Both the position numbers and the translations under genes were made by a program. From a virus: 28,053 bases of DNA. Location: positions 1 to 28,053 of the IMG/VR virus record IMGVR_UViG_3300023196_003495. One strand, written 5' to 3'. The notes under the pieces are model-generated. The model was not told the DNA's origin, made no database searches, and worked only from the letters and a program-made list of their open reading frames with translations. Positions 26,487 to 28,033 of this stretch are shown here, piece after piece (within the stretch, counting starts at the first letter, position 1; every line of letters starts with the position of its first letter).

Positions 26487-26509
26487 TCCATCAGGATACA
26501 CAACTACTT

Positions 26510-26532
26510 GGACCCTTCGGGGTCCTTTTTTT
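26510..26532 (+). terminator. Rho-independent terminator after gp23
   Basis: GGACCC (26510-26515), UUCG-type loop TTCG, GGGTCC (26520-26525), then seven T. The stem starts 24 nt after the gp23 stop. It ends the capsid unit. Confidence 0.92.
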
Positions 26533-26565
26533 ATGAGTATATATTCGTAGGCATAAATTTTTATG

Positions 26566-26594
26566 TTGAAACGAACACTTTTTGTATATATAGT
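26566..26594 (+). promoter_or_regulatory. Host sigma-70-type promoter in the gp23-gp3 gap
   Basis: A -35 TTGAAA (26566-26571) and a -10 TATAGT (26589-26594) are separated by exactly 17 nt, each matching five of six consensus bases. The predicted start is near 26601, just before the GAGGTGA at 26606-26612. It would let host RNA polymerase transcribe this island early, unlike the ATAAATA-driven neighbours. Confidence 0.65.
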
Positions 26595-26616
26595 ATTAGA
26601 ATTACGAGGTGACCCA

Positions 26617-26688
26617 ATGAGCCCAAACTCAAGTTATATTATGAGTCACATTTACAGAAGTAAAAACTATGAACAATCTCGCCTCTAG
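26617..26688 (+). CDS. Possible 23-aa leader peptide
   Basis: ATG 26617 follows a textbook Shine-Dalgarno, GAGGTGA at 26606-26612, with a 4-nt spacer. The frame encodes MSPNSSYIMS...EQSRL and stops at TAG 26686-26688. It overlaps the start of the next tiny ORF by 20 nt in a different frame, so it could couple translation to it, or the two could be joined by a frameshift. The very strong ribosome binding site is the main evidence. The peptide resembles nothing I know. Confidence 0.45.
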   Translation: MSPNSSYIMSHIYRSKNYEQSRL

Positions 26689-26827
26689 AAATCAATTATA
26701 CGAATGGACACAATCTGAAGATTCCACAGAACTAGAAAAAATCAACGATTACTACGAATGTCTAATTGAATGTACCGATACACATCAAGCATCATGTAAA
26801 CGAATCTGTAGAGAAGTGCTTATGTAG
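26669..26827 (+). CDS. 52-aa twin-CX3C microprotein
   Basis: MNNLASRNQL is followed by an acidic helix-like region and then CLIEC (C31, C35) and CKRIC (C43, C47), separated by seven residues. The twin CX3C layout suggests a helical hairpin held by two disulfides or by a metal ion. No signal peptide is present. An in-frame stop at 26642-26644 limits the frame, and ATG 26669 is the only ATG before the conserved-looking part. Its own ribosome binding site is weak (GAAG), so it may depend on the overlapping leader ORF. It has its own promoter and terminator between gp23 and gp3. Function is unknown; a small host-directed or regulatory protein is a guess. Confidence 0.65.
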   Translation: MNNLASRNQLYEWTQSEDSTELEKINDYYECLIECTDTHQASCKRICREVLM

Positions 26828-26837
26828 ATAAGAATCT

Positions 26838-26862
26838 AGACCCCTTGAAGGGGTCTTTTTTT
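26838..26862 (+). terminator. Rho-independent terminator after the microprotein gene
   Basis: AGACCCCT (26838-26845), loop TGA, AGGGGTCT (26849-26856), followed by a run of T to 26862. It starts 11 nt after the stop codon of the 52-aa ORF and closes the island. Confidence 0.92.
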
Positions 26863-26863
26863 A

Positions 26864-26871
26864 TCTAAATA
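26864..26871 (+). promoter_or_regulatory. Late promoter-like box, TCTAAATA, before gp3
   Basis: TCTAAATA lies directly after the terminator and ends only 9 nt before the gp3 ATG. If used with T4 spacing, it would give a nearly leaderless mRNA. The CTAAATA variant also occurs at 28030. Confidence 0.45.
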
Positions 26872-26880
26872 AAAATAAAA

Positions 26881-27426: not shown

Positions 27427-27851
27427 ATCTTGATGACATTCAGAAAATGTGGACCCGTGATTCGGAGATTGATCGTGATGATCTCGCTAGCGAATCTCTG
27501 AAGACTTCACAACTTCATGCAAAATATTATGAAGTTTATAATACTACTTTACTTTTACGAGAAAGAGCAAAAGAAACCTATGACAGAGTGTACCTAGATA
27601 GATATAACTACTACACAGGTAAAGCTGATCCAGAAATTTACGATAAGGAACCCTTCCCATATAAAGTCAGAGAAAAAGAAACTTTAAATCGTTATATGAA
27701 TGCAGACGAGAAGGTATCAAAAACCGATTTAAAGATTCGTTATTATGATACAATGCTCCGTTATTTGGAAGAAATTATCAAATCTTTATCTAATAGAAAT
27801 TATGCCATCAAAAATGCAATTGACTGGATGAAATTTCAAGCAGGAATGTAA
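27423..27851 (+). CDS. uvsY: Recombination mediator UvsY
   Basis: UvsY loads the UvsX recombinase onto single-stranded DNA covered by gp32, a step in recombination-dependent replication and repair. The 142-residue product matches T4 UvsY (137 aa) in order: MNLDDIQKMW with ID at the start, YYTGKADPE (T4 YYSGRGDGD), LNRYMNADEKVSKTDLKIRY (T4 VLSADKDVLKVDTSLQY), and NRNYAIKNAIDWMKFQAGM (T4 SRGFAIKHIQDMRAFEAG). The ATG overlaps the gp3 stop by ATGA, so a replication gene is translated from a late tail transcript. Confidence 0.96.
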   Translation: MNLDDIQKMWTRDSEIDRDDLASESLKTSQLHAKYYEVYNTTLLLRERAKETYDRVYLDRYNYYTGKADPEIYDKEPFPYKVREKETLNRYMNADEKVSKTDLKIRYYDTMLRYLEEIIKSLSNRNYAIKNAIDWMKFQAGM

Positions 27852-28033
27852 TGGATAACGAATACTATCAAATAGAATTAAATATCAGAGGAATTAGGCT
27901 TATTCATGAAGGTCTTCGACAAGCAGTCGAAAAATGGTCTGGTGGAGATCCAGCAGAACAAATAAACTTGATGACTATGAGAGATAATTTTTATAGAATT
28001 ATTTTAGAAGATCAGTTCAATTTGGAAGACTAA
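27851..28033 (+). CDS. Small helical protein after uvsY, 60 aa, unknown
   Basis: The ATG overlaps the uvsY stop (TAATG). The product (YQIELNIRGIRLIHEGLRQA, then VEKWSGGDPAEQINLMTMRD) is predicted mostly helical, without Cys, signal peptide or membrane segment. Its position directly after uvsY suggests a recombination/replication context. I recall small ORFs between uvsY and uvsW in related phages, but no function. The last codons contain a CTAAATA box for the gene beyond the window. Confidence 0.8.
   Translation: MDNEYYQIELNIRGIRLIHEGLRQAVEKWSGGDPAEQINLMTMRDNFYRIILEDQFNLED

Follow-up and report, generated by a model that had tools for sequence, protein, structure and literature searches.

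The window, a virus record of 28,053 nt, represents a genome fragment from a marine cyanophage of the T4-like type; its right end carries, in order, gp23, a short island, gp3 and uvsY. The island sits between capsid and tail genes, in the late structural block of a virus that infects ocean cyanobacteria, and all features described below lie on the plus strand. Two terminators, a sigma-70-type promoter with 17-nt spacing, a GAGGTGA ribosome site and two overlapping ORFs had been listed in the original prediction, and each of these elements is present at its proposed place. ATAAATA late-promoter boxes lie 34–51 nt 5' of several structural genes of the window, and scanning found no such box within 80 nt upstream of the second ORF, a 52-aa gene. 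At three positions (2217, 11341 and 21173 of the window) the distance from box to following gene start is exactly 34 nt, and at two more it is 43–51 nt. On the 3' side of uvsY, overlapping its stop codon, is a further small gene of unknown function (27851–28033, PHROG 628, E = 2e-22).

The 52-aa ORF (26669..26827) matches the PHROG 665 profile over its full length (profile positions 1–56 of 56, E = 1.4e-24). PHROG 665 is T4-GC 363, with Syn9 gp134 and Syn33_126 among its members; its proteins are cyanophage-specific and about 48–65 aa long, and all 87 diverse members matched the profile. About 240 loci with homologues were collected in four viral scans. Full-length homologues occur in 355 cyanophage records, about three quarters of the 461 records named Synechococcus, Cyanophage or Prochlorococcus that contain uvsY, and in many records the gene is left unannotated. 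The frame is conserved down to 34–38% identity, the median dN/dS is 0.07 with none of 559 pairs above 1, and divergence is seen in the leader DNA but not in the protein. Judged by these comparisons, the ORF is a genuine gene under strong purifying selection. Cellular matches were confined to four marine MAG contigs (L251–L254), assigned to the unrelated Euryarchaeota, Rhodopirellula, Bacteriovorax and Flavobacteriales; a cellular origin was considered and set aside, as these are most likely mis-binned cyanophage contigs.

The AlphaFold2 model of the protein has three helices (mean pLDDT 77), with a confident hairpin formed by helices 19–33 and 37–51 (block pLDDT 83–91). Its four cysteines are spaced CX3C-X7-CX3C, within a family pattern of CX3C-X6-7-CX3C. 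Cysteines 1 and 4 are present in all 122 distinct PHROG 665 proteins, and several divergent members lack both cysteine 2 and cysteine 3, a pattern that fits two nested pairs better than a four-cysteine metal site. Sequence searches returned no Pfam, NCBIfam or PADLOC family and no relative in the PDB, and Foldseek and VIA-align gave only weak matches to the model, as they do with any small helical hairpin. The product may be a small helical, host-directed protein, possibly disulfide- or redox-responsive.

The gene lies between two intrinsic terminators. The upstream one, on the 3' side of gp23 (26487..26532), contains GGACCC-TTCG-GGGTCC and a T-run at 26510–26532, with the stem at 26510–26525 and a UUCG loop. 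The distal one (26838..26863) consists of AGACCCCTTGAAGGGGTCT and a T-run. In 2.25 kb, the terminator scan found 3 sites against 1.3 ± 1.2 in shuffled sequences. Among 86 nonredundant homologous copies with enough flank, a downstream terminator was found within 150 nt in 83 (2.0 expected), an upstream terminator in 58 (3.2 expected) and both in 57. The transcription unit is short, about 260 nt, and its order (terminator, -10 block with conserved AGAATT, leader, gene, terminator) is conserved also in copies at quite different genome places. These results support the predicted view of the island as an independent, insulated transcription unit inside the late block. The case is far stronger by conservation than by the single sequence, because the recurrence of the elements exceeds chance and the lone promoter score does not. 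In L003, L009, L091 and about 60 loci, a conserved CCGTGTGAAGGAAGTG element lies between the PHROG 665 stop codon and the distal terminator; it is missing from the window and practically confined to the PHROG 665 gene.

The predicted core promoter TATATAGT (26587..26603) comprises the -10 hexamer TATAGT (26589–26594) and a conserved AGAATT (26598–26603), the latter overlapped by a second -10-like TAGAAT at 26597–26602; transcription is predicted to start at about 26600–26602. In the leader alignment, the -10 block has the consensus TAnATA(G/A)T (in percent, T96 A92 N A94 T98 A98 N T84), with AGAATT 3' of it (A94 G92 A79 A86 T88 T85). The -35-like TTGAAA (26566..26571), 17 nt from TATAGT, showed no conservation among relatives in this alignment, and by itself the promoter prediction does not exceed chance: 2.25 kb of sequence contains 5 sigma-70-like sites, and shuffled versions contain 6.5 ± 2.6. 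Thus both hexamers of the sigma-70-type promoter first proposed are there and its -10 is conserved, but the -35 is not, which argues against a canonical sigma-70 promoter (TTGACA and TATAAT at 16–18 nt, both conserved). An HMM of promoter plus leader found one site in the window, at the PHROG 665 gene (E = 1.3e-9). In the complete Syn9 genome it found a strong site upstream of gp134 (E = 1.7e-7), the next best (E = 0.04) being on the opposite strand inside a gene. We describe the element as a predicted host-type -10 promoter with a weak or no -35. L031, L033, L020, L112 and L186 have inverted repeats (GTCAG-N6-CTGAC or TGTTA-N6-TAACA) immediately 5' of the -10, about 100–120 nt before the gene, perhaps as an activator site replacing a -35; the palindrome is clear in some lineages, and overall 41 of 84 loci have perfect repeats against 29 expected.

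Further upstream is a late-promoter-like box, TAGGCATAAATT (26548..26559). Its CATAAAT lies 117 nt upstream of the 52-aa gene and is conserved in about 50 homologous loci. A box of this TAGGCATAAAT type is found 120–140 nt upstream of the gene in 53 homologous loci and, among the loci compared, outside those positions only in another homologous locus and in the window itself. It resembles a late promoter and could provide a second start, and hence possibly late transcription of the gene in addition; for cyanomyoviruses, an overlap of early and late promoters has been proposed (PMC2984593). Taken together, the cassette is likely on a transcription schedule other than that of its neighbours, for which early timing is plausible.

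The first ORF (MSPNSSYIMSHIYRSKNYEQSRL, 26617..26688) runs for 23 aa from the ATG at 26617 to the TAG at 26688, out of frame over the gene start, with which it overlaps by 20 nt; a further ATG in its frame lies upstream at 26563. The GAGGTGA site noted earlier as a perfect ribosome site is present at 26606–26612 as a strong Shine-Dalgarno, but it serves this ORF and not the 52-aa gene (ATG at 26669), which is without a good Shine-Dalgarno of its own in this phage. Of 85 anchored leaders, 81 have ATG and 4 have GTG as the upstream start codon, with an anchoring rule that favoured ATG over GTG. In 48 of these leaders the frame is only 1–2 codons long, its stop being codon 2 or 3, and a separate 25 have Pro at codon 3, the Met-X-Pro class to which the window belongs. 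Early stops are enriched in this frame only (49/170 in frame 0 against 2/170 and 7/170 in the others). Weighted over 39 protein clusters, which are related by descent and hence not fully independent, early stops amount to 25.9 against 5.7 expected and Pro at codon 3 to 7.4 against 1.0. A strong Shine-Dalgarno is associated with the Pro class (p = 0.005). Ribosome sites are strong before long frames and weaker before minimal ones.

Leader comparison found no conservation of the peptide of the long frames beyond the first residues, and the position of their stop moves; the ORF is for this reason not a second gene, its start codon and third-codon pattern alone being conserved. Of the two tiny ORFs originally proposed, then, one is a gene and the other appears to be a regulatory leader uORF. 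The suggested check in related cyanophages likewise gave a divided answer, with conservation of the -10/AGAATT block, the 52-aa gene and the terminators, but not of the -35 or the first-ORF peptide. Part of the uORF pattern could stem from conservation of the RNA word ATGNNNYNAAA instead of from codons. Outside the PHROG 665 gene, the leader pattern gave about 10 scattered matches in 2.3 Mb of strand sequence. A single metagenomic contig (L030:3001–3150) carries a natural deletion, about 32 nt long, that on our reading joins the uORF in frame to PHROG 665, as expected if the uORF start codon works.

The leader alignment also contains a conserved box RTYAT(G), in the window ATTATG (26638..26643), usually 14–23 nt (median 18) past the start codon of the uORF. 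One alternative is that the leader serves mainly as an RNA operator to which a protein such as the phage translational repressor RegA binds, with the upstream ATG no more than a part of that site. The box consensus UUURUYAUG bears a short sequence resemblance to the T4 RegA SELEX consensus aaAAUUGUUAUGUAA, as given in PMC3014915; regA is listed as a core gene of cyanomyoviruses in PMC2984593, and it is annotated in Syn9. However, the RegA-like box lies 20–30 nt upstream of the gene's own start and not over it, and such an operator leaves the ATG-to-GTG replacement and the in-frame stop or Pro at codon 3 unexplained, so that we consider this reading unlikely. The leader could also be a structured RNA, thermosensor or riboswitch-like, with a hairpin of the start-codon arm AUGA and UYAU. 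Pairing is slightly stronger between a leader's own arms (-4.25 kcal/mol) than after arms are swapped (-3.69 ± 0.19 kcal/mol; 0 of 200 swaps reach the own value), but this swap test is confounded by relatedness and the pairing extends over only about 4 bp. Individual minimum-energy folds have no common structure, and covariance models gave no Rfam match at gathering score in the region, the window or 16 related loci; a structured leader is thus quite improbable.

That the island is intergenic debris, its gene read only by late read-through from gp23 and its promoter a chance match, would agree with the chance-level promoter score in the single sequence, but the -10/AGAATT block, the leader and the terminators are conserved even where the gene is far from gp23, and we regard this as very improbable. 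The small regulatory RNA originally suggested, with accidental ORFs, is hardly credible: it would fit a short insulated unit with its own terminator, but the conserved product is a protein, as its identity range, low dN/dS and constancy over a diverging leader indicate, and no Rfam family matched.

The cassette is not fixed in its position. The gp23–gp3 junction houses the PHROG 665 gene in 86 loci, and a further 84 loci with long flanks have it at other places: it adjoins transaldolase and psbA in S-SKS1, is near psbA–psbD in ACG-2014f and near thyX in S-CAM1, and lies behind gp32 in ACG-2014d and before tRNA genes in P-RSM6. In S-T4 and Sf-CH8, the isolates closest by gp23 (87–90% DNA identity), the gene is absent from the whole genome. 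In S-T4, only 69 nt separate gp23 from gp3, and the final 27 nt are the same as in the window; a late-promoter-like CTAAATA (26865..26871) is assigned to gp3, the next unit. Sf-CH8 carries a tryptophan halogenase at the same junction (L083:2275–3447), which marks gp23–gp3 as a hot spot for extra genes.

Phages whose gp23 is 85–88% identical in amino acids carry a PHROG 665 allele of 49–59% identity at the same place, whereas in phages with a gp23 of 60% identity the PHROG 665 protein is 92% identical. At the DNA level, identity to these distant phages is 73–74% in gp23, 79–94% in the aligned parts of the cassette and about 65% in gp3. The mismatch between gp23 and cassette indicates that the cassette is exchanged as a block, horizontally, between distant cyanophages. 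Its left boundary lies at or just behind the gp23 stop codon and its right boundary near the distal terminator; 26487..26532 is 91–94% identical over ~70 aligned nt to L004 and L020, whose gp23 DNA is only 73–74% identical. The cassette appears to behave like a phage moron, in that it is extra DNA between genes adjacent in a relative (S-T4), has its own factor-independent terminator downstream (in the window and in 83 of 86 copies) and bears a conserved promoter-like block. A base composition unlike that of the neighbours is another often cited moron trait; the island, at 31.8% GC, is far below gp23 (50.3%), but gp3 and uvsY have 36.6% and 33.1%. Given its wide spread, PHROG 665 resembles a persistent accessory gene more closely than it does a rare moron.

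We propose that the island is probably an autonomous, single-gene, moron-like cassette with host-type transcription and uORF-tuned translation. The observed gene, its conservation, the unit architecture, the mobility and the start-codon and third-codon pattern of the uORF are the footing of this proposal, and promoter use, timing, uORF translation, coupling and the role of the protein are inferred. Late transcripts from gp23 would be stopped by the upstream terminator, and a host-type (sigma-70-like) RNA polymerase would start near 26600, at the -10 with its conserved start region. The resulting mRNA would comprise the leader with the upstream start codon and then the gene, and would end at the second terminator, so that the gene would be expressed off the late schedule, probably earlier. 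The uORF would be translated and tune translation of the 52-aa gene. In most lineages it would act as a one- or two-codon start-stop unit; in the clade of the window phage it is longer, its ribosome site is strong, codon 3 is Pro, and the frame runs past the gene start. As the 52-aa gene lacks its own ribosome site there, it is probably translated by coupling. A bolder extension, which we hold to be rather doubtful, is a family-wide switch in which a leader start followed by a stop or Met-X-Pro would stall or drop initiating ribosomes, the PHROG 665 level reporting the state of the translation apparatus in host takeover; if true, its expression would sense ribosomes, release factors or tRNA during that takeover. 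T4-like cyanophages abound in the ocean, and among their small genes PHROG 665 is very widespread, unexplained and often left without annotation; its organisation as a separate, exchangeable unit with a predicted promoter and a leader of its own makes this gene a concrete target.

Syn9 gp134 and Syn33_126 belong to the same protein family and are found at the same gp23–gp3 place, and PHROG 665/T4-GC 363 is known solely as a hypothetical protein. Searches of the S-PM2, P-HM2 and field-transcript papers returned no passage on the gene, and the papers found gave no description of its promoter, leader uORF or cassette exchange. Like the T4 RegA-controlled leaders of PMC3014915, the mRNA leader of this possibly early gene contains a UUAUG-like box, but in the cassette the box does not coincide with the start codon of the gene itself. 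The two-codon minigenes of PMC8708949 (axe-txe mg2 and the LEE1 minigene cited there) likewise have a start-stop frame of 1–2 codons upstream of the main gene, in cis. A start, at most one sense codon and a stop upstream of the main gene are found in 48 of the 85 relatives; the window uORF, with 23 codons, is not such a minigene. In contrast to those minigenes, the cassette frame is conserved over a phage family and alternates with a longer, overlapping Met-X-Pro frame, as in the window, its regulation being putative. Phage morons, according to PMC2629481, are gene units, usually independently expressed, inserted in the late morphogenetic block; the ant moron of P22-like phages is, like the cassette, a unit in that block that is absent or different in close relatives. 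Unlike these, the cassette occurs in lytic phages, carries a conserved leader uORF and is built on a single gene family that recurs throughout a whole phage group, at several genome places.
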